This document shows, in pieces, positions 2,951 through 30,100 of a stretch of DNA of 64,000 bases. The position numbers and the translations under genes are program-made. Numbering within the stretch: position 1 is the first letter of the stretch; the number at the start of each line of letters is the position of its first letter. The stretch is from Utricularia gibba (lineage: Eukaryota > Streptophyta > Magnoliopsida > Lamiales > Lentibulariaceae). The DNA is taken from positions 2,418,001-2,482,000 of the forward strand of contig NEEC01000004.1 of the NCBI GenBank assembly GCA_002189035.1, in the 5' to 3' direction. The notes beneath the pieces are model-generated. The model had not been told where the DNA came from, did not search any database, and was given only the letters and a program-made list of their open reading frames with translations.

Positions 2951-3705
2951 CCAATCCCCACCAGGAACACGAAAACTATCCCCAAACTCCAACTCCTCCT
3001 CAACCCACTTCATTGTCACCGCGGCGCTGCTCATCTGACATTCATCTCTTTCCCTCGAGTTGAGCAACACAAGACATCGCCCACGAAAGGGTTTTCTGTT
3101 ATCTACAAAAACTCATCGGCGCCATTTCTCATCTTTTGCTGGGAATACGGATAGATATACATCTATGTATATCTCTCTTCTTTGTTGATTGGATGCATCC
3201 TTGTTTTTTTCGCTGTTCTGTATTTCTTTTTACGTCTGTTTGCACTATTCGTGTGCCACTTTGCGTGCCCCATCGGAGAACGCAGATGTCGTTCGTATTT
3301 CGATTTTCTGCTTGAAGAAATTGAAATCTCTGCTTTTCCCTCCTTGTGCCAGTTTGGTTGCTTCTGGGGTTTGACTTGCTGGGTCTTTTTTGGCGTTTTT
3401 CACCCTTTAGCATATGCTATTCTTTTCTTGATGCTTGCTTGAGACTTTGCTTTCCCGGTGAGAAATGCATCTCTTTCCTGCTGGATCTCACTCGGTAGAC
3501 ATTGTTTTTATGTCGGTGGGATCTGGCTTCGTGGTCTTTTCCAACCTCACTGATGCAATCAACTGATTAATTTTCAATGTTTCTTGTGCGGCAATGAATT
3601 TCTCTCCCGTTCCCCTGCATCTTGTCTTTTGGGCTCTATTATTTCAATCTTCCCCCACCTGATCATCCAACGTTACATATGTATCCTTCATTTATGCAGC
3701 TTGCA
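2951..3705 (+). promoter_or_regulatory. Promoter and 5' leader of the FPP gene, with a probable leader intron
   Basis: A G-rich patch near 2920-2960 gives way to a pyrimidine-rich stretch typical of plant 5' leaders. A donor-like GGTGAGA begins near 3458, and TTTATGCAG ends at 3699, six bases before the start codon. A leader intron of about 240 bp is therefore plausible. This is inferred from splice consensus only; no transcript evidence is available. Confidence 0.45.
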
Positions 3706-6700
3706 ATGGACAGAAGAAGCTGGCCGTGGAAGAAGAAAGCTTCTACAAGTGCTGTTGATAAGCAGACAAATGTGATTGAGAATTCGGTGCCTGTTTCAGA
3801 CAGCCACGTTCATAAGGTCCTTTTGATTCTCTAGTTTTGTTTTGTAATTGATAGAACTGCAGGGATTTTCTGCAGAGGGCTGGTTCAAATGGATTGTCTC
3901 TTTATTTGTTTTACAGCAGGTGAAAGAGGAGAGAAGACCAAAGAATGTACAGATCTCCATGGAATCGTACATCCATCTCACTGGATTGGAAAATCAGTTG
4001 AAGAGCTATGAAGAGGAAGTGCAGCGCTTGGAGGATGAAATAAATGATCTGAATGAACGGTTATCTGAAGCCAATTGTGAAATAACCAATAAAGACAACC
4101 TGGTGAAGCAGCACTCGAAAGTTGCTGAAGAAGCTGTTTCAGGTTTGAATCTACCGATTGTATGTCTCCGTTTTTCTTCAGGATGGCTGGAGGAATGTTT
4201 GATCTGGAATTTGTGCGTTTGTTTAGGTTGGGAAAAAGCCGAGGAAGAAGCTGCTGCGTTGAAGAATCATTTGGAGTCAGTTACAATGCTAAAACTCACC
4301 GCTGAGGACAGGGCATCACATCTTGATGGTGCGCTGAAGGAATGCATGAGGCAAATTCGGAATTTGAAGGATGAACACGATCAGAAATTGCAAGAAATTG
4401 CTCTGAGCAAAGCAATAGTGTTTGACAAAATGAAGTTGGAGCTCGAGGGGAAGTTGTTTGCCTTGGATCAAGAATTAATGAACGCTGTTTCTGAAAATGC
4501 TGCACTATCAAGATCTTTGGAAGAGAGATCTAGCATGGTTTTCCAGCTAAGTGAAGAAAAATCAAGGGCACATGCTCAGATCCAACTGTTGCATAGCAAA
4601 ATCGAGTCGTGTGAGAAGGAGATGAATTCCCTTAAATATGAAGTCCACATTGCGAGGAAGGAGGCTGAGATTTGTGGTGAAGAGAAGAACATTTGTGTGC
4701 GCTCCGCCGAGGTGGCAAACAAGCAGTATCTTGAATCAGTGAAGAAAATAGCTAAACTTGAGGCAGAGTGTCAAAGATTGCGTGTTCTTGTTCGGAAAAA
4801 GTTACCAGGACCAGCAGCAATAGCTCAAATGAAGCTTGAAGTTGATAATGTGGGTGGAGACTACGGTGAGCCTCGTTTTAGGAGATCCCCGGGGAGGTCT
4901 CGCTCTCCCCATTCATCTCATTCTTCAGAGTTCTCTCTTGAGAATTCCCAGAAATACATTAAAGAGAATGAAATCCTCAGTGGTCGTCTAGTGGCAATGG
5001 AGGAAGAAACAAAGATGCTGAGGGATGAATTGGCTAAGCGTGATAGCGAATTGCAATCTACTCGGAGTATGTATGCAATAACAGCAACCAAGCTGCAAAG
5101 TCTAGAAGCAAAACATTCAAGCCTTCTGAAATCTACTCAAAGTCACAATGAAGGTGTCTTCAGTAAAAAATCTAACAAGCTGCCGAGTTTCCCGTGTTCA
5201 TTTGGAGAGATGGTTGACGACAATGTAAGTAGTTCTGGTTCGTGGTCTGCTGGACTGCTCTCCGAGCTTTCTGACACCAAAAGGCTAAAAAATGCAGATA
5301 TTAGTCCAGGGATAACTGAGAACGCGGACGATCGGGATCTTATGGATGACTTTTTGGAGATGGAAAAGTTGGCATATTCAGCAAATGAATCTAATTCAAT
5401 TCTTTCTGACGCGGATGTTAGACTACAACATCAGAAAACAGAACCTCCTGTTGAAGGTCTCTCTATCTCCGGTGGGATCCCTCATTTGCAGGTGGATTCA
5501 TGCCTGTCTGCAGAACTCAAGTCCTTATTATCCTCAGTGGTCAAGGCAATGACCAATGAGAATGGTCAGGTATCAACAGCTGAAAATGCGAAACATTTTA
5601 TTCAAAACATGTGTGACTTCCTGCTTCTTCAGCCAGAGAATCTGGCCGTGGATGCCAGTAACTCTTCCGCCACTGCACAAGAATTGAAGGCTGCCGCTTC
5701 TCGGATCTGCGAATTTATTCTGATACTTGGAAGAGAGACTAAGCATGATCCTGATGCCCGTCATTGTGGAGCCACTCTACATTCCCAGATTGATATGATC
5801 GTCTCCAAATACATGGGCACCATGGACAGTGACATTAATCCAGTTGACTTTGTTGTCGACATCTCTAATGTGTTTTCGGAAGCAAGCAAACTGCATTTCA
5901 ATGTCTTGGGAGCGAAAATCTCTGAATCAGAAGCTAGTTCAGATTGTATAGACAAAGTTGCTCTACCAGAAAACAAAGCTGTTTTGGACTCAATGGGAGA
6001 GAGGTATCATCCCACAGGCTGTAGCCACTGTTCAGATAGTTGCTCCGATCCCGATGTTCCAAATTATGGGAGTCTAGTTCCGACCACGGAATCCTCCATT
6101 ATGGCATGGAAATGCTCAAAGGAGGAATTCGAAAAAATGAAAATGGAGCGAGATACCATGGTGGTTGATCTTGCTAGATGCATGGAAAACTTGGAAAATA
6201 CGAAAATGCAGTTTCAGGAAACGGAGCTTGTTCTTGCTGAAGTTAAGTCGCAGTTATTAGCTGCCCAGAAGTCGAATGGTTTGGCAGATACACAACTCAA
6301 GTGCATGGCAGAGTCTTACAAGTCACTCGAAATACGGGCTCAGGATTTACAATCAGAAGTCCATCACCTAAAAGGAAAAATTGAAACCTTAGAGAATGAG
6401 CTCCAGGAGGCAAGGACAAGTCTCTCAGAAGCACTCAGTAGATGCAAAGATCTTCATGAACAGCTTGACAGGGTTGATGCTTCCAAAGAATCCTGTATTG
6501 AAGACAAGGCCTCACAGGTAACAATCTTTTTGTTCTCTAGCCGGAGCATTTTTGGAGATCATAGTCTGTTTCTCTTGCGACACTTGCATACCTAAATCTG
6601 CTGCGTAGGATATAATGTTCCTGAAACTTGGCTATATTTTTTCCCCTCAGGAGAGGGAGTTGGCAGCTGCAGCTGAGAAGCTGGCCGAGTGTCAAGAAAC

Positions 6701-8779: not shown

Positions 8780-11340
8780 CACCCAATGAACAATGGTACA
8801 ACAAAAAATCTAGTGTTGAACATCTCAAGATATTTGTATCTATGTGCTACATGGGCTGAAAGAAAAAGGATTAATCTTGATCAAAAATCACCAATGAGAA
8901 TTTTCCTTAGATATAGTGAAGTGTCTAAAGCCTATCGAGTGTTTAATTTATAGACAAATAGAGTGGAGATCAGTCGCGATATAACAATGGATGAATCTAA
9001 ATAGTTCAACTAAAATCATATTGAAGATAAGTCTCAACAAGAATACATCATCTCCTTGATCAATCTATTTCCTAATTAAAACCAATCAGAAGTCTTCAAT
9101 ACAAATAGAAGACAAATCAATAAGATACTTGCAACACTCCTAAACTACTACAACCAGTTAAACATATCTCATAAACTTCAATCAATGATCAACACCACAC
9201 TTCAAACCTTTCTCTTGTCACAAGTCACAATTTGGAATTTCATGAACCTCACTTTGAAAGAAGTATTACCTGAATACAATGGTGAGGTTATTGATGTTTC
9301 TCCATCATAAATTGCAAACCTTGTTTGACATCTGAAAATTCTATTATCAACCATTTTGAAGAAGCAATTACTAGTGAAAGAAATACTAAAAAAAATTGAC
9401 TTGATAAATAATCTATATACCTAAAAATCCCATAAAGACCCTTATATAGATTCATTCAATTTTAATGAAGAATATTTTTATGAAATTTCTCATATATCAA
9501 GAGACAAGAATAGTAGTGATTTTTACATTACATCTTTTGAAATCGATGTAGAACATGATGATCCTAATTATGACCTTAAGTATATGCTTTGGTGTTGTCT
9601 TCAATTATAAGGGCCTCTTATGCTTCAGTTTTGGATGACCCAAAGCATGAATTTTGGGATGTTTTTGACTCACCAAAATATGTGAAACCTTTAGATCTAA
9701 AATGAATTAGAAGACTCAAACTAAATTCTAATGAAATCATGAATAAAAGGAAAATGCTTTCGTTGCGTGTCGTTTTCTCAACAAATTTTAAATATTTATA
9801 AAACGTAACACAAAAAAACGTAGTACGAGTATCGATCTCAGGGAGTCGTTTTTCGTGAAAAGTGTTTGTAAGAAACTTCCACAAAATGTCACGGTTTTGC
9901 AAAAGAGGGTTTTTAAGATGCAGAAATAAAAGTTACAACCTAAGTGATGGGCCTTGACTACGGTACGCAGTTCCTGGGAATAAGATTCCATCTCCTTCCT
10001 TTGTCCATCATTGCCTCGGTTTTCACTGATTTCTTCCGAATAGCTGGTTATAGGAGCAAGGAATAGCCTACTCTCCCTTACACTCTAATTGACAAGGAGG
10101 CACGGGAATAGCCTCAGGTAATTCCCCATTAGACGATTAGGAAGACAAGAGGATTGCCTTCAATTGCCCTCAAAACCGAATTGTGCACATGTGCCTAGCT
10201 GTTGCCAATGGCCAATGGCAGGTCTGATGTCACAACCTGTCCATTGTCGTGGTACCTAAGCCACAAACAATCTGCTACTTCTCTCGAACCTGTAGGGTTG
10301 GAGTTGATGCTCTTCACCTTGATCTTCACCAAAATCCGCGAGGAGTGGCCTGCTACTCATGGACATTGACTAAGAGTCGTTACAGAAAGACTGCAACAAG
10401 AGGGGTGGAAGTATGCGGAATCCGAATTGAATTCAGCGAAGAACTGAGTGTATTGCTCAGGACTTGGAAGGAAACTTCATCTACTTCCCAGAAACTAAAG
10501 GTTTTTAGCCCGAAAGTGCCATGAAAACAGAAACGGAAAATGAAAGCTTCCTCCTTGAAGAGGAGGAAGAACCTAAAAGTTCTAAGTACAAAAGAAAAAT
10601 GGCAAAAGTCGGAAACTAAGTGCTCCAAGTGGCTTTTATATCACTCTCCACGTGCATTAATTCCTTTGAGTCCCCTTCCCATCATTCCTTCTGTCTTGTG
10701 TGCGCCAGTAACTTTTCTTTGCGTGCAAGTTTGCGCCCAATCATTTCTGCAGACTCTGACATGCCGTAAGTCAGGGGCCTTAATCAGTGTCAATCTTCTG
10801 CCCACAATCATTCCAACTCGCGTACAAGGCACGAAAACTCAGAATCTGACCACTTGCAACACTCCATGACACTCTCCTGACATGTCTCGGTCAAAGTGTG
10901 AGAAAAAAGACAGAAAATATATACAAAATAGGAAAATGGGGATTTTCTAAGGAAAATCAATTTCTCATCAATATAATTCCTAATTGGGCGACTTAATACA
11001 TAATTAACACATAATAACACTTAATAAATAACTAGAAAATGACACTTAACAGCTTCTTACAAAAACTAGGAATAGATTGCTTTGAAACTTTTGCTCTAGT
11101 TATAAGATTAGACACTATCAATTTGGTTCATGCATATACAGCTTACAACAATTGGAAATGATTTCATCTTGACATAAAAAGTGACTTTTTAAACGGAGAG
11201 TTGAAGGAAGATATATAATCCTCATCCCGTTTTTTCTACTCAAAATGGAAAAAAAAGTTTTTAAATTGAAAAAAGCTTTTTATGGTCTCAAGCTCATAGA
11301 ATGGTATCTCATTATACATACTTATTTTGTAGAATAAGGT
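8780..11340 (+). mobile_element. Ty1/copia relic (integrase end to reverse transcriptase), split by a solo LTR
   Basis: From 8780 to 9000 the plus strand encodes a decayed integrase C-terminus: SSVEHLKIFVSMCY, then IFLRYSEVSKAYRVFNL and EISRDI. A decayed linker follows to about 9600. The reverse transcriptase begins near 9590-9755 (LNSNEIMNKRK) and resumes at 11057 as GIDCFETFALV, then WKWFHLDIKSDFLNGELKE up to about 11340. The 9761-11051 interval is a solo LTR inserted inside the RT coding region. In-frame stops show that the copia copy was already old. Confidence 0.8.
9761..11051 (-). mobile_element. Solo LTR 'A' (Ty3/gypsy-type) inside copia RT
   Basis: This is a 1291-bp element with related inverted ends: CGTTGCGTGTCGTTTTC at the left, and TGTTAAGTGTCATTTTC read inward from the right. 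It is flanked by GCTTT and GCTTC, a 5-bp target duplication with one change. Removing it with one flank rejoins the copia RT reading. It holds no gag, pol, primer-binding site or second LTR. The pattern CAGGGAG near the left end, read in reverse, resembles the 3' end of Athila/Tat-type LTRs; that class is inference. Open frames inside it are accidental. Confidence 0.8.
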
Positions 11341-17013: not shown

Positions 17014-20000
17014 TCAAGTTGGCCTTCCCATAGATTCAGGCTGCTGGAGATTCTTTTTGAACAAGTGCTGGAGCAGAATTTCTAGTATATACCACAGTGG
17101 TAAATTTGGAGGAGGGAGCAAGTCCCGTTTTTTATGAAGTAAAGTGAGTACACGTGCAACAACAAAGAATGCAGCGATTGATCCTACAATCGCAAAAAGC
17201 CCCAAGAAGCTATCGAGACCCAGGCTCTCGTGAGAGAATGGGGTAGTTGGACATAGGCTTGAAGGTACTAACCATTTTTTTTCCATCTGAAACATTTTGT
17301 CACTCTCAATGACATTCAGCACTGCCTTTGAAACATCCGATACCAACGGAGACCCAATTGGAAACACCTGCAATCAAGAATAATGCACACATAAGTACTA
17401 ACCACGGCAGAGTGTAAAGTTAAATTTGTTATCCTTTTTTTACTCACGAAGCCAAAACCGGCTGTTTTGTAAATAGGACCAATCATAGCGTACTGTGAAG
17501 CATAATCAGACAAGAAGACTTTCAAGTATGGGGTTTCATCAAAAGCTGCTGCAATTTTTCCATTTCCATTGCCAGTCACGAACAACTTATTGAGTTCCTC
17601 TGAGCTGTTATATGGTAGCAATCTTGATGTGTCAAAGTTGTTTTTCAAGAGAAATTCCCTCACAAATGTCCTTTCTTGATAACCAACATAAGCATTATTT
17701 TGGATAAGTGTTTTCATATCGGAGATTGAAGGTCGCAGTTGATTGGCAGTTAAAAGTGAAGCCAAATTAGCCGTGTAGCTTTGTGTGAGGATAAGAATAA
17801 TAAAAAACCATAGAATCATAATAATCCTAGTGAAATTGCTTCTTATATTCTCCTCTGCAAAAATGCATTATAAAACAAGTAAGAAAATGATGTTAGTAAA
17901 AAATGTATATCAACTTATCTTTCAATAACTTACTTTGAGAAAATACCATAGTTGAAAAAGAATACCATAGTGCCATTCCTACTTGATGATGAAGAGCACC
18001 TCTAAACTCGGTTCCCTCCTCTCCATGCTCTAGGATTAATATCACGACCGCAATGATTATGAATGATAAAAAACTTGTCAGCCAGAGTTGCCATGTTAGT
18101 GGCCTTAGAAATAACCATGCTTTGTTGTTTTTTATGTGAATATATGGAACAAGCATGGAAACACCAGATTCTGTATAAGGAAGTGAGAAGTCAACAAATG
18201 CTGACCGATTTGCGATTATTGTGATGTCACCAACCAAAGCATCATAATTCTGTTCATTTTTCAAAAAGCAAAATAGTCACAATCAATTTAAATAAATAAA
18301 CCTTTTATAAAATTATGAAAACACACTTACCTTGAGATATATCTCATTTATCATGTCGTCATAAGTCCCATTAGGTTTCCTGTGAGCTGTGGCAAAAGGA
18401 ATGTACTCATATTGTACACCATATGGCAATGATTTTATAACTGCATCAAAAATCTCAATACAAAATCCTTGTGCATTTGTTGAGTTATCCGGATTCCAAC
18501 TGACATGGACAAATTCAGGGAAACCATCTTTTACTGGAACCAATACTCGAAGTTTCTTTTCATTTACTGGCAACACCCATCCTTTAGGTGGAGAAATCCT
18601 ATCGCCTGGCCATATAATTGTCTTGAACTTACCCTTCAATGTGGATGCTTGAACCGTTGATTTATGTTCTCTAATAATTCCATCTTCTTCAGTCCAATAT
18701 CCCACTACTCTAGCTGCTGAGCCAACTATGTTAAGCACCTCATAAGGTGGAGATTGAAGTTGTTTATCCCTAAATTTAACGTGACCTGCCAACCCTTCAA
18801 ATGCTGTGTTTGATAGAACTTGAATAAGATCCATGCCAACAGTTGACACGCCCAATTTTTCAAGGTCGGTGGCATTACTCAGGCCATTTGACATTAAGAA
18901 TGTTTCATTTCTAATAGATAGTGAAACTTTTTCAATAGCCATGGCTAGTGCAGTTATGGTATCATATGCCCATAGGCCAATAACTGTGGGTTCCATCGCT
19001 CTGTTATGGAGTGGAAATTCTCTTTTGTAATGCGCTTGAAACTTCTGAAGCTTTGATGTTTTAGGTATATTAGGCCTCACTCCCAAGACTCCTTCCATGG
19101 ACTCCATAACATCTTGATTCAAGGTATTCAACGGATTCGTCAATGCATCAGTTATAATCCATGCATATTCTTCGCTCATCATCCCAAGTTGTTTTACTTT
19201 CAAGAAGAAGCGAGAACCAAGAGCCTCGGCCATGTGTACAACAAAAATACGAGTTTGCATAGTCATTAGCTTATTAAGCTCAGCAACAATCTGATCATCA
19301 GTTGCAGATGAAGGAATCCCACTTCTATAAGGAATGCGGACATCTATTTTTTCCAAAGCATCACTCAAAAAGGGAAGGATTCCTTGTCCAAACTCATCAT
19401 CAACATAAACCACTGTCATTTCTCTCCAACTAAAAGCTTGAACTATGGCACTTATGACACTTACTTGTGAAGAATCACTCAAAGCAGTCCTAAAGAAGAA
19501 TGGGCTTCTAATTGATGTGAGGGAAGGACTTGTGGCTGTAAATGTTATGATAGGCACATGTGCCTTATCACCAAGATGTATCACAAAATTTGCCTCCATT
19601 GACTTCAATGGTCCGATGATCGCCTCAACTTGAACATTCTTTATTAAGTCTACAACTGTGGATAATTAAACTAAACAATGCATTTTTCTGTAAAAGATAA
19701 AATTAAAAATAAGAAACTGAAACTAATCATTCTAAGCACACCATTTAATCCCTAATGATTCACGGTATTAATCTTATGATCTTAAGCTCTAGGGTCCTTA
19801 TATAAACTAGGCCCATGCTCACAAATAACTTAACTAAATAAAAACAACATTAATCTACTTTATTATCATAGTCCCTCCGAGGAAAATCGATTTTTGACCC
19901 GAATTCCTACCAAGTTTCAGAAGGTAAAAGAAATCGGTTTACTTGACCCGCATGTGCTCAGTTTTGTAGAATTTTACGAGGAAATGAAGAACGGGAAGTA

Positions 20001-20276
20001 AACGAAATAGGACGCACCTGATGAGGCTGCAGCCACAACGTCTCCCGCGGAGTCCCTCGTCGTAAGAACCAACCTTGTCTGAAAATGTCGATTCTCGGCG
20101 TAGAAATCTTCTAAAGCCATATTCATGGCGGCCAAACTCATCTTCCCAACCTCCATGCTCATGTCGAGCACCACCCCGACCCTCACCGGAACTACCGCCG
20201 CCAAGGCGTTCTCCTGCGAGAAGCCGAGTAACACGAGAACCCAACACAAGAGCAAGTCCCCGAACGCCATTCTCAT
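17014..20276 (-). CDS. GLR: Glutamate receptor-like channel (GLR, clade 2-like)
   Basis: Plant GLRs are tetrameric amino-acid-gated cation channels of the plasma or internal membranes. Five exons join in frame: 20018-20276, 18331-19655, 17934-18249, 17448-17854 and 17014-17367, giving 886 aa, normal for the family. A signal peptide (MRMAFGDLLLCWVLVLL...) begins at 20276. Upstream in-frame ATGs exist but would bury it. Exons 1-2 encode the periplasmic-type ligand-binding N-domain (VPVRVGVVLD...) and the start of S1. Exon 3 holds RSAFVDFSLPYTESGVSML, the conserved Arg region of the ligand site, then membrane helix 1 and the pore loop. Exon 4 holds the gate motif SYTANLASLLTANQL and S2. Exon 5 ends S2 (VFPIGSPLV) and contains the last membrane helix (FAIVGSIAAFFVVARVL). 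No disrupted frame or missing core motif was seen. The clade 2 placement rests on motif resemblance only. Confidence 0.95.
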
Positions 20277-21283
20277 AGCTGTGTGTGTATGTTTTTCTTC
20301 TGGAGAAGAAAATGGGTGTACACAGAAGAGGAGGTACGTAGTAGCCATTTATCATCTTCCTCGGTGGGACATGAAGAACCATTTGAAATGACCTTGAGGG
20401 TTGAATTTTCAGATCCGGACACTTTGGAACATGACTTTTTAAAAATTTGTTTTATACTTGTTTCAAAAACATCGTTTCCCATCTAATCCTATAAAATTCA
20501 TTCATAAATTATAATACAAAATCAGAATCCACCTCATCCTGTACAATGTCCCATGCCGACAGCATACTCTGAAACCGCCCTTCCCGACCCAATATACCCG
20601 TGATGTTTGGATGTAAGAGCATTATCAATAATCTTCAAATGCGCTTTCGAATATGAGTAAGCAAGGATGGTTTCCCTTTATTCAACATGAGTCAACCCGG
20701 GGGACCCAAAAAAGGGTAATGCAGTCATTCAGGGATGATGACAGCCAATCCGCTAGAGGCGCATTCCTTGACTACTTCAAAGCAAACTCACTGGCGTGCT
20801 TCCCTACACAAATAGTACTTCATAATTGTATCAGTTTCCACTTCATTAACCTGATATTATGGGAAAAAGAGTAGCTGAGGTTTAGGGTTTATGTTTGAAG
20901 GGTTATATGATAGCAAAGTATTAATCCCTATTTACAAATTATTGGTCCAAATCTAGTTTTGGTGTTTTTTCATGGCCGGAGAAATCCAAGTATAATTTTT
21001 GAACACAAATATTGTGTTTAATGTTCAACTTTTCTGGTCTTACTCACAGGAAATTAGGTGATGTGATGTGTCGCATAGAAATATTAGTCAAAGGTGGTGG
21101 CGGTGTTTGGCATTTCGTAGGTTCAGAGAAATAAAAAAACAAGAAAACAGGAAAACGCGTTGCTTGAGAGTTGGAGTCACAGGACCAGTGCTTTGCTACA
21201 CAACAAAATAACTATCACATGATTTAGACATTGTACCCGATTTTTTATGATTTATTTTCTCGGTAAAATTAGAAAGGATTTGT
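20277..21283. other. Upstream region of the GLR gene
   Basis: This should hold the promoter and 5' leader of the glutamate-receptor gene, which is read leftwards. I could not identify a convincing TATA box. Short open frames (for example 20653-20874) show no motif. Confidence 0.4.
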
Positions 21284-21517
21284 AAAAACAAAAAGTATGT
21301 ATTAAATAACATTGAAATTGATAATTTCCAAAACATTATGAAGATATTTTTGTAAAAACGGACGAGTCTCCAGCCAAGTACTAAAATTGTGTAAAAATTG
21401 ATAAGTCTCCACAATTTTAGTACTTGGCTGGAGACTCGTCCGTTTTTACAAAAATATCTTCATAATTTTTTGGAAATTATCAATTTCAATGTTATTTAAT
21501 ATATACTTTTTGTTTTT
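21284..21517. repeat. Near-perfect palindrome, 108-bp arms and an 18-bp loop
   Basis: The left arm 21284-21391 and the right arm 21410-21517 are reverse complements with only two mismatches in 108 bases; the loop is 21392-21409. The right arm is bracketed by a 13-bp direct repeat, CTCCACAATTTTA, at 21407-21419 and 21520-21532. No terminal TG/CA or transposon-like ends are visible, so it does not look like a MITE. If transcribed it would form a long hairpin RNA. Confidence 0.95.
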
Positions 21518-21532
21518 AGCTCCACAATTTTA

Positions 21533-21999
21533 TTAAATATGTGACTAATATATGCTATCTAATCGTATGAAGCGAATGATTAAATAAAAGATTAAGAAAG
21601 AAGTGACAAAGATTAATTTGGTAAATACCCAATGGAAACTCCTATAATTTTCTCATTTTTTACATCAAAAACCATATTTGTGACCTTTTGCCTTCTGCAC
21701 AATCGAAATCTCAAATTTTGCGTAGCACCACTCGATGTCAATGGAAGAGGCTCCGAGCCAATCCAGATGTCTTTCTTTGGACAATCACTTGTCTGTTGCT
21801 TCACTGAACAGCCCACGTCAAGTCGTCGAAGGAAACAATGTCTTGTAATTTCTGATAGTCTGATTTCTGCTATTGGGTTATTGTATCCATGCTTACTGTG
21901 ATTCTCACTGGTGGTAAGAAAGAGTACCAGAAACCTATCCGCAGTGTATGTGAGATAAATATTACTTGAGAATAAAGTGATGGGTTTAAACAAAATGGC
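21533..21999. other. Unassigned DNA between the palindrome and the copia element
   Basis: An open frame of 126 codons on the minus strand (21613-21993) and an 89-codon frame on the plus strand overlap here. The minus frame ends with a short VFDVKNEKI segment that is vaguely like the end of aspartic-protease-type proteins. That is too weak to call a gene. Confidence 0.35.
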
Positions 22000-22208
22000 T
22001 GAAGAAATGGTAAATGATGAAATATTACTGGTTTGTTAATCGATGATTTAAAAAAAAATTTAATGAATAAAAAGGAAAGTTGAGCACAATCTTGGATACG
22101 GGATAATCTCCAAGCAAAGAATGTGGATATTCTTAATTTATTTCATTGATTCCAGTTTGATTGCAACCATTTGTTCATGAGTGCAGTAGCATAAGAACTG
22201 GGCAATCA

Positions 22209-24586
22209 TGGCAAAATTTGGTAAATACATACGACAGATTACATATATTTACAAAATATTGAAAGTTTTTTTATTATAAAATTACATGTAATCTTAGTTT
22301 TCATTTGTAAACTACCAGACTTCTTCTTTTTTAAATTAGAAATAGCCCATGGGAGCATATCCGTATTTGTTGGTGTTAAGTGTCATTTTATCACTTTCTT
22401 TTATATTGTTTTTATGTCTAGATGTGATTAAAATTGTCTAATTAGGAGTCTATAATATGAGATTTAGGTTTTTATCTAGTTTAGAGTAATTATTTTAAAT
22501 TTTGTATTTTTATCTAATATTCTTGTTAGTTTTATTTAAGTTTTTCTAAAGATACACACATGATAGTAAGTGAGAGAAAAATGGCAATAGATGGTAACAA
22601 ATTGGATCTTTCCGAACTGACATCCCTTTGATTTCTGGAAGACTGCAGACGCCTAATCATTAACCTTGACGTGCGGAATACAAGAGTCTCTGATAGGCGA
22701 CATCATTAGCATACTAGTGTTAAAGCATAACTTTCGTGCAAGTCACCCCAAATCCAGTAGAACCACAGGAACACAAAAACTAAGACAAAATAGTTCAACT
22801 CAGTTCAGTTCGGGCAAGTTTGAATGAGACTTCAATTCAGTTTAGACTTTTGTTTCTCTCTTTAAAAGATTTTCCTCTAGCTTCTCTCTAGAATCTGTTT
22901 TCGTTTCCTTTAATTTGTATGGCCATTCACGACTAGAAACTTCTGTTTCTGGGTTGGGATACTTTCAAATCTATATTTTGTTAACTTATCTTCATCTCTT
23001 CTTTGAATCCGAACGGGTTCCGTATATCTTCACACGACTATGTTACAGTCTTTTTGTAATAGTCCTCTTCTTCAAGATTCATGGTTAGCTGATCACTATC
23101 TGAGACTTTTGAAAAAGAGTAAGATGGAAAGTACCAACTCACACCTCTTTGGCAAGAGGAAAACAACGTTTTGTCTGTGGCTGTACCTCATGATTAATAG
23201 ACAGATAGTGACCTCGTATATGGACTCATTAGGTCATTGGCAATACTCGGGCACATGCGTGCAATTCGACTATAAGGATACGCTGGCAGGACCTCTTATC
23301 TTCACGTTCATCCAAGGAGGAGCAACATCGGACTATTCCCGTACCTTCTTGTAAGAGAGTGTAAGGGAAAGTAGGTAATTCCTTATTCCTATAACCGAAT
23401 ACTCGATAAGACTAGAGAAGAGTGAAGACGCAACAAATGTAACTGGACATGATTCTAAACTCAGGAACATTCGCTTAATTTAAGGTTCATCGTTTATGTT
23501 TATTTCTATTGTTTGTTTAAAACCCTCTTATCTCCTTACTCAAGCTTCATCATTTACGTTTCTCCCATCTTTTACTTTCAAAACCGTTTACAAATTGTAA
23601 TAGTTATATTTGGTGTACCTCATCTTTCACTAAAAAACAACTCTTTGTGTTCGACATCCATAGTTCGTTTTTGTGTTTCATGAATTTTAAAAATATTAAA
23701 ATTTGTTATGGAAACGACACGCATCAATTGACGTAAATGAACATTGAACAAAATGATTTTCCATGAAAACAAAAGAATCTATAGTATAATATTTTTAAAA
23801 TTATAATAAATAATACAATTCATTATTAATAATGATATTAAGAAAACTACACAAGTAAACTAGTTAAAAAAATGTACAAAAATGTAATATAATAAATGAT
23901 ATATGTTATTTATGAAATAAAAAATTAATAATTAATTTTTATATTATTATGATTTATTTACAATTATAAAATATTTTTACATAAAAGTAACTATTTTTTA
24001 CTCGAAATTGTTATAAAAAATAGTTTTTTTGTATTTTAAAATGATTTTGAAAATAATGAAGACCAAGTATCATATTAAAATTAATAATATTTTTTGTTTT
24101 ATATTAATTATTACAATTATCAATTCTTTTTGTAATTTTTACTTATTAATTATTTTCCATACACATTCAATATCACTTTAAATTAATTGGAAATATTTTA
24201 ATTTTTTGTAATTCAATTTTTTTAATTTATAAGCAATCATAATTATATTCATTAAAATATCATTTATTCATTTGGAAATTATGAATGAAAAAATGATAAC
24301 TATAATTATGGATATTTTAAGTATTTGAAAAAAATTTGAATATGTTATATATAATTTTAAAATTTTAAAAAATAATATTTTCATAGCAAGTCAGCTTTTA
24401 TAATGTAATAAAAATTAAGAATGAAGTGATTTTAAAATTGAAATACCATGATTTTGCAAAGAAATTTATAAATTTAATATATTTTATCAAAAAAAATAAA
24501 AAAATAAAGTAATTTACAAATTAAAATGAAAATTCTGGTAAAATACCAATCAAAAGTAGTGACACATTCAAAACACTAATTATCCT
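22209..24586. mobile_element. AT-rich insertion in the copia 3' LTR, unclassified DNA element
   Basis: LTR alignment breaks after GGCAATCA (22201-22208) and resumes with GGCGATCA (24587-24594), a likely 8-bp target duplication with one change. Eight-base duplications are typical of hAT elements and eight to nine of Mutator-like elements. The ends carry no obvious terminal inverted repeat. Without the nested solo LTR C it is about 1 kb, extremely AT-rich and non-coding. Similar GGTAAAATAC phrases recur near both ends and again near 46110. Confidence 0.5.
22374..23726 (+). mobile_element. Solo LTR 'C'
   Basis: A 1353-bp element begins TGTTAAGTGTCATTTT and ends AAACGACACGCATCA. It is closely similar to solo LTR D in reverse orientation over its full length. 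The flanks GTTGG and ATTGA agree at three of five positions, and both differences are G/A transitions, so the target duplication is decayed or doubtful. Near its right end TTTGTGTTCGACATCC resembles the 3' part of Athila/Tat LTRs. The open frame at 23040-23354 is internal to the LTR and should not be annotated as a gene. Confidence 0.75.
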
Positions 24587-24672
24587 GGCGATCAACTTGT
24601 AGTAAGAAGGATTGGTAAAGTTAGACTATCTTGAATTATCTTGGTACTTATGTCAGCTATTGTGATTCATCA

Positions 24673-26868
24673 TCCCCCTCAAACGAGGCTATGGTTAGAG
24701 AGTGAGTTTGCTATGAAACATTACCCACATTGACTTTGTGAGAGGTTTGATAAACAAATCAACCACTTGAGATGAGACACGCATTAGGTGATTAAGAGAT
24801 CTTTGGCAACCTTCTCATAAACAAAGTAAGAATCCAGCTCAATATCTTTACTATGACGATGAAGAATAGGGTTCATAATCATGTGAACCGCAGCACTAAA
24901 GTGTAATAGGAGAAGTGTCTTGGAGTAAATGGCAATTACTTGAGATCATGAAGCAAGTAATAGAGCCATTGAGTTTCTACAATAGCTTGGGCCATTGAGC
25001 GATATTCAACCTTTAGTGCTGGAGTGAGAAACAGTCCTCTACTTGGAAGAGAATTAGGAAATATAGTTGTTTCAAAGAAGATGTAGTAACTAGTGACAGA
25101 AAGTCGGATGATGGGCAAATCGCCCAATCAATTGTAAGAACCCAAGGGGTAGAATGATTACCAGTGTGTGCATTGGGCATATGGGATCGGGATTGCTACT
25201 CTAATTAGATTTCTTGTAAGGCTTCGACCAAACAAAAAGAACAATGCACTGGTTTGATGAACCGAATTTTGCTTAGATGAAAATTGAGCACTCAAACAAC
25301 AAGAATTCTTTGTTTAAAAATATAAGAAAACAACTAGAAACAAAATAACCTTAAAAGCAAAAGGAAAAGCAAAAAACCCGTAAGTAGGTGAGTGGAATTG
25401 ATCAAGAAAACATGATCTTCGTTGAGGTAGTTAAGCCATAGTGGGCTATGCAATCATGGACCACATTACTGAAGATTTGTTATCGAGTTCAGATTTTCCA
25501 ACAAACTCTCCCTTGAAGTCAGCATCATTCACAAGTCCAAGTTTGCTCCTCAATATTGCAAACATACCAACTTAGAGGGGCTTAGTTCACATATCACCTA
25601 TCTGCAGTTCTGTTGGATAGTATTAAACATGTTTTTGCTGATCATGGAGTAATTCTCTTATAACACTTGATGGAAATGTGCTTGAAACACAAGATCTTTA
25701 ATCATGGCAATTGCACTTGAAAAATCACAATGCAATTTAGTCGCCATAATCTACTTCATACCCAAATCTTCTAGCAATTTTTCCAACCATAGTTTGCTGT
25801 TAATGAAACAACAATGTATTCAGCTTATGCCATAGATTGGGAGATCAATCTTTGTTTTTTTGAACTACAACTGGTCATTAAAGTTCCAATGTGGAGAGTA
25901 TAACCACTTGAACTCTTGTAATCAACATCACCTACAAAGTTTGAATCTACATAACCTTCAAGTTGATGAGTTGTATTTGTTATAACAGAGTAGGCCATAA
26001 TATGTAGTGCTAGCAACATAGCAAATAACTGTTTAATACAAGTGATCAAATTTGTTGTTGGTTGATGCATGCACTATGAGATAAAATCAATAGTTTGTGC
26101 TAAGCCCAGTTTTGTATAAGTTAAAAACATGAGATACTTGATCATTGCCTTGATAAGTATACTGTTAATATTGGGATTGGTTTGAGTTACAAGATTAGTG
26201 GTTTTAGCACCCACTAGGATTTGTGTGTAGAAGCTCTAGTGTCAAAGACCCATTTAGTAGAACCTACAGTAACATCCAAATGAAGAGCTTGAAAGGATTG
26301 GGAAAAAGCCACCATCGATGAGCCATTGGGAAGATACCATCACATTTTGGTGATATGTCCAAATGTATCACAAATTTGAAAAATTTCATTTTCGTACAAC
26401 TTACATTCCTTAAGTGTCATATGATGTTTCCTTGGTGGTGGACAGTGAGCTCGGTAAGGTTATTAATGAATTTGTGGGCTGTTGAGCTTGAAACCCACTA
26501 CCAACATATGAAAAAGAGATGCTGCAAGTGTTTTTGGATTGGTTTTTTGTCAATTAGCTTGATAGGAGGATGGGATGAGGGAGAATGATGAGAAAATTTG
26601 TGTTGAGCTCATAAATGTGAAGTTGGGGAATTAATTTAGAGTATGTGGGTCTTGAGAGAATAATTAGTATCGATTGTACACAACAACTAGATGATTGTGT
26701 TTCACTCGTAAGATGGCCGACAAGGTTTTGAATTTCATCCAAAGACAAGACCTATTCTTGCCAAAGAAGATAATTGGTGGAACTGAGCTTGATGGTAGCC
26801 ATGAGATCTATGAGTGTGGGAAGTTAGTGGTAGGTGTGAGGATCAAAAAAAGTTACTCTCATGAGATA
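24673..26868 (-). pseudogene. Chimeric copia internal remnant: gag end and two RNase H ends
   Basis: From right to left on the minus strand: a gag-like stretch (LDEIQNLVGHL near 26700); a protease-like DTRAS near 26230; an RNase H block at 25825-26070 (YVDSNFVGDVDYKSSSGYTL, then CSSKKQ) continuing to about 25560; and a second RNase H block at 24690-25127 (SVTSYYIFF, KVEYRSMAQAIVETQWL, then DIELDSYFV). A second polypurine-like tract AAGGGAGAG at about 25505-25515 is followed by a possible LTR at 25133-25503. Two RNase H ends in one element mean that at least two copia copies are mixed here. Integrase and most of the RT are absent. Confidence 0.7.
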
Positions 26869-26880
26869 ACTCTGATACCA
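26869..26880 (-). other. Copia primer-binding site
   Basis: Read on the minus strand it is TGGTATCAGAGT, one base from the standard plant copia site TGGTATCAGAGC that pairs with the 3' end of initiator-methionine tRNA. It directly abuts the LTR end at 26881, which fixes that boundary. Confidence 0.9.
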
Positions 26881-27132
26881 TGAATCATTGTAAATGATGG
26901 AAGAAAATCCTATTCAATCTTTAGGAAGATTTATATTACTAGTTTGTAAATAGACTATTTAAAGAGATTCTAATGAATGAAAAAGGAATTTAAACTCAAT
27001 CTTTGTACGAGAGATCATCTCCCAGCAAAAACTCTAGATTTCTTTGATTTAATTCATTGACTCCTGCTTGATTGCAATTGTTTATTCAAGGTTACAATAG
27101 CATATGGGCTAGGCAATCACCTTATAGTGAGA

Positions 27133-30100
27133 AGCTATGATATTAGAATTCGACCCAAAGGCCTCTAGGCCGAATCTCATTTAAGGGTACGGGATTCTAG
27201 TATGGATTTGCACACTTCCTGTATCTCATTATATTAATATTTATAATAAAAATTGTGATTGTTTTCACAGTTCATGCCATCGTTCTCATGAACCCACACT
27301 TAAAGAAAACCTTAGAACTACAATCATTTCCCTCTAATCGGTAAGAAAGATTTGTCCTTTTTCTTATTCTTCGATTCCTCTTTGCTTAGATTTCACCATG
27401 AATTTTTCTTTTAGTCATTTGATGTATTTTGCATCCTACTCTCAATCTCAATTCTCAACTATTTCATTATGGGTGGCTTCTAATTTTTAATTGCAAGAAT
27501 AACTACTAGAAAATGAAACTTGCACTAGGTATATAGTTTTAGACTTGAGTGTTTGACACCAACAGCCCTTCCATATGTTTCTTTTTTATTCTTCAACTTT
27601 CAAATACTTTTCTTTCTTCTTATTCTTCGTTATGATATTTTTGTTCTATATTTGATATTGTTTGTTTGATTTGTCCCTATTGTTAGGAATTATTGATCAC
27701 TTTGGAAATTTGTCATTATTGTAAGAAAGACAATTTCAAAAGGTGGAAATAAAATATTTAGTTGCAACTATTGCAATGTAGAATTATAGGCTCATATTTC
27801 AGAGTTTGAGCTCTTCTAACAAAAACCACTGACCAAGGTGCTAAGATATGTTAAGCTATTACTCCAACACAACTCACTGAAGTGAAAGCATTAGAAGAAT
27901 AATCTATTCAAAAAATAGATCAAAATTGGCTTATTGCCTACTATAAGCAATAGATTAGGAGAAAGATCTCATACTCCAAGTCTAGATTATGGATCTTCAT
28001 CTCAAGTATTTTTCTCATCTACTTTAGTTGATGAAGATTGTTAATGTGAAGGAAAGAAGCACAAACTTGCAAAACAAAAGATATTAGAAGAATTATGGAA
28101 TATAAAAGATAAGAAAGAAATAGACAATAAAATTGCAAAAGATTTCTACACTAGTGGTATTCCATTCAAATTTGCATGTTGTGCTTATTTTATTAAAGCA
28201 ATGTCCTTACTTGATTTAAAAAAAACTACCTGCTAATTAATTTTTAGCATTTTTTTTACACATCTCATTGTTGTATATTTCTATTTATCATTTATAATAC
28301 ATTTTTATAATATAGGTTATTTACCACCCAATTTGATAGTTTGTTAGAAAAACATGGATAGTGAAAGGAAACACATTGAAAAGTTATTCAATCCTACAGC
28401 AAGCACATGGGATTCAAAAGGTATAAACATTGTAACTGATGGTCGAATAGATGTTGAAAGGAAGACTTTGATTAAATTTATTATTCCAAATGAATCTAGA
28501 AGCATTTTTTGGCGAGCATCCAATTGGCCATGTGAAAAGTGGACGCTCTATTGCTTTATTAATTAGGTAAGTAGTAACTGATGCTAGAGCATTAAATATC
28601 GTTCAAATAATAATGGATAATGTTGCAAATTGTAAAGCTTCAAGTCATATGATTGAAAAAGTATATCTAAAGGTAGTTTAATTTTAATTCAATTTATGTA
28701 GATTTATTTAATACATGTAGTATATTTATACCTCTAACACACTATTGTATATTTAACAATGCAGATTTTGTGAACATTGTGTATTGTTTATACATTAAAT
28801 CTTATCATGAAGGGACATTTGCTTCCACACCAGCTATATAGGCTAAAGATATTGTTGGTGAAGTATCCATAATTAAGAATTTTATTATGAATCATAAAAG
28901 AAGGTTAGTTATATTTAGAAAATACTCAAGTATATCATTTTTGAAGGTTTCCAAAACTAGATTTGCATCTCATGTGATTGTATTATCTTGATTTAAATTT
29001 CTTGTCAATTCATTGCAAAAGATGGTTGTTAGTGATAAATGGAATTCATGTGATGATGGGGAAAGGAGAAAAACTAATTTAGTTAAACAAAGAATATTAG
29101 ATCGTTATTTATGGACTTGTATTAATTATATTCTTAGAGTTTCATAGCCTATTGTGAAATATATTAGATTATGTGATATGGGTCAACCCACTCTTTATTT
29201 AATTTATGAACAACAGGATATTATGTTGATGAAGGTGAAGTAGGCTATATATTCTTTTGATAATGGTGAGGAGTACCACTTAATGTTTTGGGTTGATGTC
29301 GTAAAAATCATACATGAAAGATGTACACAAAGTCTTACTCCTTTGCATGCTATCGTTTATTGTTTGAATCCCACGTTAGCTTTCATTTTAATTTCATTGG
29401 AGTATTCCTTTCATTCATGAATCAAATGATGTTGCATATTATTTTTATAATCAATGTTTTATAGGTATGCTACTAAAGAATGGAGAGATCAACATCTAAA
29501 CTTGCTTGAGATAGAATGTGATTTGGTCCATTCAAAGTTGAAAGATGAGTTCCTCAATTGATACTTTCTTGATTCTAGGTTTTAGCAAAAGGAGAAGTGA
29601 AAGAAGAATTGACAACTTTTTTGAGGTACTCACATCAATTTGGTGAACCTGAATCTTTGGTAGATAAACTACATATGAAGCCAATATCATGGTGCTATTC
29701 TTGTGGTGTTCAAACATCACATCTTTCACATCTAGCGAAAAGAGTTTATGATTAGCCTTTTTCTTCTTCTTAAAGTGAAATGAATTGGAATATTTACTCA
29801 TTCATCCATTCAAAATGAAGAAACAAACTAACCTCAAAAAGGGTGGAAGATTTAGTTTTTGTGCATAGCAATTTTTGATTTTTTTCAAGGAAAACATCAA
29901 AGTACCAATAAGGTATTTAAAAGATGTGGGATGTTAACCATTCAAGATCTCTGATAGATACAACTATCTTGAATTCGCCAAGCTATCTATTAATAATCCA
30001 AAATTTGAGAGTATCATATTTAGTAATGATAATGATGATGAAATTGAAGTTCTACAAGAGTTTGATGATTGATGAAAATTTCTTACTTCGTTTTGTTAAA

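Follow-up and report, generated by a model that had tools for sequence, protein, structure and literature searches.

How does a near-perfect palindrome with arms of about 110 nucleotides come to stand upstream of a glutamate-receptor-like gene, and can the sequence from which it grew still be recognized? The locus lies in a 64,000-nucleotide stretch of the Utricularia gibba genome (contig NEEC01000004.1, positions 2,418,001 to 2,482,000), referred to here as the window, and coordinates are those of the window unless another contig is named. A first-pass annotation attributed the palindrome to a growing DNA strand that folded back at a short inverted repeat and copied itself. The comparison of two versions of the region described below supports such an event, to which we assign a probability of roughly 0.7: the right arm would be the product of fold-back template-switch synthesis on one allele at a short inverted repeat that existed beforehand.

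The palindrome and its surroundings

An inverted-repeat search of the window recovered the palindrome where it had been annotated, with arms at 21283-21391 and 21410-21518 (109 nt, 98% complementary, two mismatches) around an 18-nt spacer. When a second contig that covers the region, C168, is used as the reference, the inverted copy becomes one base longer (21282/21519), giving 110-nt arms with three differences, two of them internal and one at the outer edge. The left arm is accordingly given as 21282-21391, the loop as 21392-21409, and the right arm as 21410-21519, all on the + strand. The inner end of the left arm, TAAAATTGTG (P, 21382-21391, + strand), is the exact reverse complement of CACAATTTTA (P′, 21523-21532), so that the two form a 10-nt pair offering the short complementarity at which a switch could be entered. 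Repeat searching also bore out the 13-bp direct repeat said to bracket the right arm, CTCCACAATTTTA, whose copies occupy 21407-21419 and 21520-21532 on the + strand; the last 10 bases of the second copy are P′, the second half of the short inverted repeat.

Structures of this kind are rare in the sequence surveyed. With arms of at least 30 nt, a spacer of at most 200 nt, and a 12-nt exact seed, the palindrome is the one inverted repeat in the window, and ten 10-kb genome samples (100 kb) searched with the same settings contained none. It is also the sole pair with arms of at least 40 nt that are at least 95% alike and at most 100 nt apart in 143,306 bases comprising the window, C168, and copies of a nearby repeat. 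The predicted RNA fold of 21284-21532 has an energy of −156.9 kcal/mol; shuffled sequences average −34.8 (z −29.6), and none of 200 reaches as low a value.

Three further arrangements were observed in the additional sequence. One fetched stretch (L012) holds an inverted repeat at 3645-3949, near a copy of the transposon-like repeat treated below, with 100-nt arms that are 92% alike and 105 nt apart, and at 1688-2149 several 33-39-nt stretches recur inverted, most of them starting TTTCCAGACA. Another (L015, 1645-2616) has an inverted repeat with 298-nt arms, 88% alike, and a spacer of 376 nt.

The neighboring glutamate-receptor-like gene spans 17014-20348 on the − strand, with exons delimited by open frame only. 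Pfam domains above cut-off are ANF_receptor in 18313-19665 and Lig_chan in 17316-17867; a weaker Lig_chan match falls in 17893-18276, and none was found in 19974-20348. Among solved relatives, the best for 18313-19665 is Glutamate receptor 3.4, a plant protein. The most upstream open frame, 19974-20348, is read from 20348 downward and gives an approximate gene start; the distance from there to the palindrome, on the 5′ side, is about 0.93-1.0 kb, in agreement with the annotated value of about 1 kb.

A second version of the region

A genome search with the 249-bp stretch that contains the palindrome was performed against the 100-Mb assembly (best candidates scored, very common words skipped, gaps read as N). 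Four rows were returned that represent two places, each in both orientations: the window itself and positions 16131-16242 of C168, which hold the left arm alone. This short contig of 32,391 bp is collinear with window positions 5149-38350 across the 30,892 of its 32,391 bases that were fetched, and it shows many one-base length differences that resemble long-read errors. An apparent 3-base inversion at 9797-9799 was discarded because it resolves into two one-base length differences in A/T runs. The aligned pieces differ by 65 SNPs, including the junction base; 60 fall between 18.8 and 29.0 kb, five are earlier (three of these five are false), and none is later. The density peaks at 22.2-23.7 kb, where 28 SNPs lie in 22215-23679 (1465 bp, 1.9%; junction base excluded). 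C168 is most likely the other allele, given an SNP pattern like that of a second allele in a mostly homozygous plant, and not a very recent duplicate. As an observation in its own right, window 18804-29004 (L001, L003) is a block of divergence from C168 within otherwise near-identical contigs.

The two contigs part company inside the loop. C168 follows the window to 21393, continues with CACAATTT, which corresponds to 21523-21530 and is the first 8 bases of P′, and then resumes at 22220, so that the stretch that differs is 21394-22219. After the left arm its letters are GTGTACACAATTTGGTAAATAC followed by window 22220 onward, and the junction is reproduced exactly when the window pieces ending at 21393, spanning 21523-21530, and starting at 22220 are joined. 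The first difference beyond the join is an SNP 19 bases on, at 22239, where C168 has G and the window T. These letters mean that C168 is without the loop stretch 21394-21409, without the right arm, and without 21531-22219. Its junction reads TAAAATTGTG-TA-CACAATTT, which is the short inverted repeat with no loop between its halves and no right arm; the genome contains the 20-mer TAAAATTGTGTACACAATTT a single time, in C168. An inverted repeat that had been postulated as older than the palindrome is thus found in a contig that has no palindrome.

What lies to the right of the palindrome indicates which contig has changed there. A transposon-like repeat beginning GGCAAAATTTGG occupies 22210-24586 on the + strand, carries an insert at about 22377-23727, and is nested in another repeat (22024-22208 and from 24587 on). 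Nine copies were fetched from 12 other hits at that end among the matches listed (best candidates), and these copies begin (G)GCAAAATTTGG or a close variant, with A as the third base of CAAAATTT in all nine. By eye, several are flanked by target duplications of 9-11 bp, a feature reminiscent of Mutator-like elements. The window copy has an imperfect target duplication, GGGCAATCA and TGGCGATCA, matching at 7 of 9 positions, and both sides of the host repeat are kept. Since the nested repeats and the imperfect duplication are intact in the window, it is the window that preserves the older order on this side, and the difference is a deletion in C168. The same nested-repeat junction and target duplication rule out a fully ancestral C168 from which the window arose by insertion of the whole 820 bp.

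The deletion in C168 most likely removed about 690 bp to the right of the junction through a 5-bp microhomology, AATTT, which is common to CACAATTTTA and the end of the transposon-like repeat. The C in the C168 copy of CACAATTT matches CACAATTTTA at 21523; at the corresponding base of the transposon-like repeat, all nine other copies examined have A, and derivation of the C from that repeat is unlikely. Because the C differs from the repeat and matches CACAATTTTA, and because AATTT is common to both, the C168 ancestor before its deletion most likely read TAAAATTGTG-TA-CACAATTT and already lacked the loop and the right arm. The first-pass annotation had suggested looking for a single-copy precursor; C168 supplies the left arm without the right one, but with a deletion of its own, it is precursor-like rather than a clean precursor. 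Two points weigh against our preferred reading here. The deletion starts exactly at the insertion point of the palindrome on the other allele, which is a coincidence unless the 22-bp palindrome formed by the short inverted repeat is a hot spot, and the key evidence at the junction is one base together with the absence of 16 nt.

Which arm is the original

A diverged paralogous sequence bears on the direction of copying. Near 1.171 Mb of the contig that contains the window (C413), a stretch aligns with window 20951-21323 at 66%, a match that includes the outermost 40 bases of the left arm. In two further stretches of C413, near 1.155-1.160 Mb, the alignment is confined to sequence farther upstream. 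Since the outer part of the left arm is in place in this paralogue, the left arm is the original sequence and the right arm is the inverted copy. A single-copy version of the locus scores 52.5 in the paralogue alignment and the palindromic version 43.5, which favors the former, although the likeness beyond 21323 is too weak for the difference to count. A second paralogue match at 21467-21587 (weak, 64%) was set aside, since we attribute it to the same resemblance reappearing in the right arm, together with AT-rich sequence. Separately, C413 positions 1154800-1160000 and 1170900-1172000 (L017, L018) contain three stretches like the receptor upstream region (66-70%), perhaps a second receptor-like cluster.

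The window thus carries an inverted copy close to a source that is still in place in C168 and, in part, in the paralogue, as template switching predicts. The arms differ at three positions; C168 shares the base of the left arm at 21299 and 21334 and that of the right arm at 21282. Because agreement is split, both arms have changed since copying; with C168 as the reference, two changes fall in the right arm and one in the left.

A patchwork loop and a two-step model

The loop appears to have a history of its own. Of the 18 nt at 21394-21411, which comprise 16 loop bases and 2 from the start of the right arm, 17 (15 of them loop bases) are covered by two left-arm words in direct orientation, AAATTGATAA (21315-21324) and AGTCTCCA (21365-21372), and successive words overlap by 1-3 nt. 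This tiling was equaled by none of 20,000 mononucleotide shuffles and by 4 of 21,167 window 18-mers, figures that are somewhat optimistic because the words were spotted by inspection before testing. A single 10-nt left-arm word is not very rare (the shuffles match it in 86 of 20,000 cases and the window 18-mers in 85 of 21,167), and it is the pair that is. The tiling by left-arm words makes it probable that the loop was inserted by templated synthesis from nearby sequence, and its absence from C168 agrees with this.

The events can be arranged in the following order. The ancestral allele would have consisted of the left arm with its inner end TAAAATTGTG, then TA, CACAATTTTA, and the present right flank, the short inverted repeat making a perfect 22-bp palindrome; TAAAATTGTGTACACAATTTTATTAAATATG gives the letters expected for an allele without the loop, the right arm, or the deletion. 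In a first step in the window lineage, 16 nt patched from left-arm words would have gone between the halves of this palindrome to make the 18-nt loop. The second step would have started with a growing strand that, having passed CACAATTTTA, folded back and paired with TAAAATTGTG in a 10-bp stem. From there it would have been extended outward along the left arm for about 100 nt, as far as 21282, and then gone back to its proper template at a position 13 nt before its exit. Such a return would explain the CTCCACAATTTTA direct repeat, including its CTC, as a stretch synthesized twice. In four-point notation, the event would be 3-2-4-1 with return before exit, a label worked out in this analysis. 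The C168 allele, still loopless and single-armed, would have lost its approximately 690 bp independently through AATTT. A single fold-back from a C168-like ancestor would leave the CTC before the second CACAATTTTA unexplained, and a loop-bearing intermediate would be needed. The original proposal of a fold-back at a short inverted repeat therefore gains from the single-armed C168 with the predicted repeat and falls short at the loop, which seems to call for a second templated step that the proposal did not include.

Alternative explanations

A replication fork need not have been involved. Repair of a double-strand break by several rounds of microhomology-primed templated synthesis could have made both the loop patches and the inverted arm. 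Polymerase-theta-like repair and MMBIR are names given to such processes, and the templated insertions of end joining are usually shorter than the arm seen here. The patchwork loop, with its 1-3-nt overlaps between words, is what break repair would leave, and a break might have occurred at the 22-bp palindrome itself; the 110-nt inverted tract, the 13-bp duplication, and the lack of net loss fit a switch and return. We consider break repair unlikely but a serious contender, one that overlaps with the fold-back model and would leave the same letters.

A somewhat more doubtful alternative keeps the right arm as a fold-back copy and changes the standing of C168. The palindrome would predate the split of the alleles, and C168 would have lost the loop, the right arm, and the 690 bp by deletion from the palindrome center, in which case it would not be precursor-like. 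Palindromes are known as fragile sites (PMC7999016), C168 breaks off 2 nt into the loop, and arm divergence (3/110) is not below allele divergence. The junction is harder to obtain in this way. Had the deletion run from either CACAATTT copy to the transposon-like repeat, the 16-nt loop stretch that C168 is without would have been retained. If 21393 and 22212 were instead joined bluntly, one mismatch would be left and an A-to-C change would be needed at that very base. A blunt join also makes the 7/8 likeness of the repeat end to CACAATTT accidental, and 64 of 63,993 positions on the + strand of the window reach 7/8.

An assembly or sequencing fold-back artefact is very improbable even with one of the two contigs lacking the palindrome, because such an artefact would copy the present left arm, whereas the arms differ at three places and at 21282 the right arm matches the other contig and not its own left arm. 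Insertion of a fold-back transposon or MITE, which long near-perfect inverted repeats around a short middle might bring to mind, is hardly credible at a locus for which the 100-Mb assembly yields two matching places among the best candidates (itself and one single-armed copy, where the annotation had named many sites with defined ends as the mark of a transposon), whose left arm runs on into sequence common to the paralogue, and whose outer flanks show no target duplication by eye.

Age of the palindrome

The preferred reading, fold-back synthesis on one allele, can be set against the divergence of the two contigs. The arms differ at 3 of 110 positions (2.7%, with a wide error), compared with 1.9% between the alleles in the right-hand block and 5/4745 on the left. 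By this measure the palindrome would be about as old as the local allele split and not fresh, so the earlier description of it as recent holds in that its age is near that of the split (3/110 next to 1.9% in adjacent sequence) and does not hold in the sense of extremely recent. The arms are, if anything, more diverged than the alleles, which would count mildly for a palindrome that predates the split.

Known systems and small RNA

Great-ape genomes provide a close comparison. PMC7954356 describes 1503 template-switch events with a median copied length of 12 and a maximum of 128, some with point 4 before point 1. The U. gibba palindrome resembles these four-point switches in being a locally templated inverted copy and in the return before exit, and it differs in its copied length of about 100-110 nt, its plant host, its observation in two contigs of one genome, and its extra templated loop. 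Quasi-palindrome mutations in yeast (PMC3820800) are likewise seeded by an existing inverted repeat; they extend the identity of imperfect arms, whereas here the arms would have grown from 10 to 110 nt.

Other comparisons concern hairpins and small RNA. Template switching makes hairpins and microRNA stems, according to the relevant passages of PMC8794818, which deal with mammalian microRNAs and rRNA. The present case is like these in that a perfect stem arises de novo as a reverse-complement repeat, and unlike them in that the hairpin is known from DNA sequence alone. In the Allen model for the origin of plant MIR genes, as presented in PMC3237417, an inverted duplication also gives a long hairpin, but those genes copy their target gene, whereas the source here is upstream sequence at the same place, and the searched 21-mer has no other site. 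That search, with a single GC-rich 21-mer from one arm, found no genomic site with three or fewer mismatches beyond the two alleles, and an Rfam search of 20400-22300 gave no match at gathering score. Among the matches listed from the open-licence literature, none linked template switching to plant microRNA genes or to hairpin siRNA. A PNAS study from 2023 is said to describe de novo miRNAs that arose from template switching.

The palindrome most probably represents neutral structural variation. It is quite improbable that the hairpin forms a newborn small-RNA locus, carried in the heterozygous state by a segregating variant. If the hairpin were transcribed, 21-24-nt RNAs from it would match the left arm on both alleles, and the palindromic allele could then silence the receptor upstream region in cis and in trans, a paramutation-like state arising from one replication error.

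The locus is a new, long, and well-resolved case of a known mutation type, a clear worked example and not a new principle. It has been proposed that template switching yields perfect hairpins, the raw material of small-RNA genes, in a single step. The plant genome examined appears to contain both a derived and a precursor-like allele, including a possible seed palindrome, so that the source, the order of steps, and the relative age can be argued from the letters, and one perfect palindrome of 22 bp may have hosted two different rearrangements, one on each allele.
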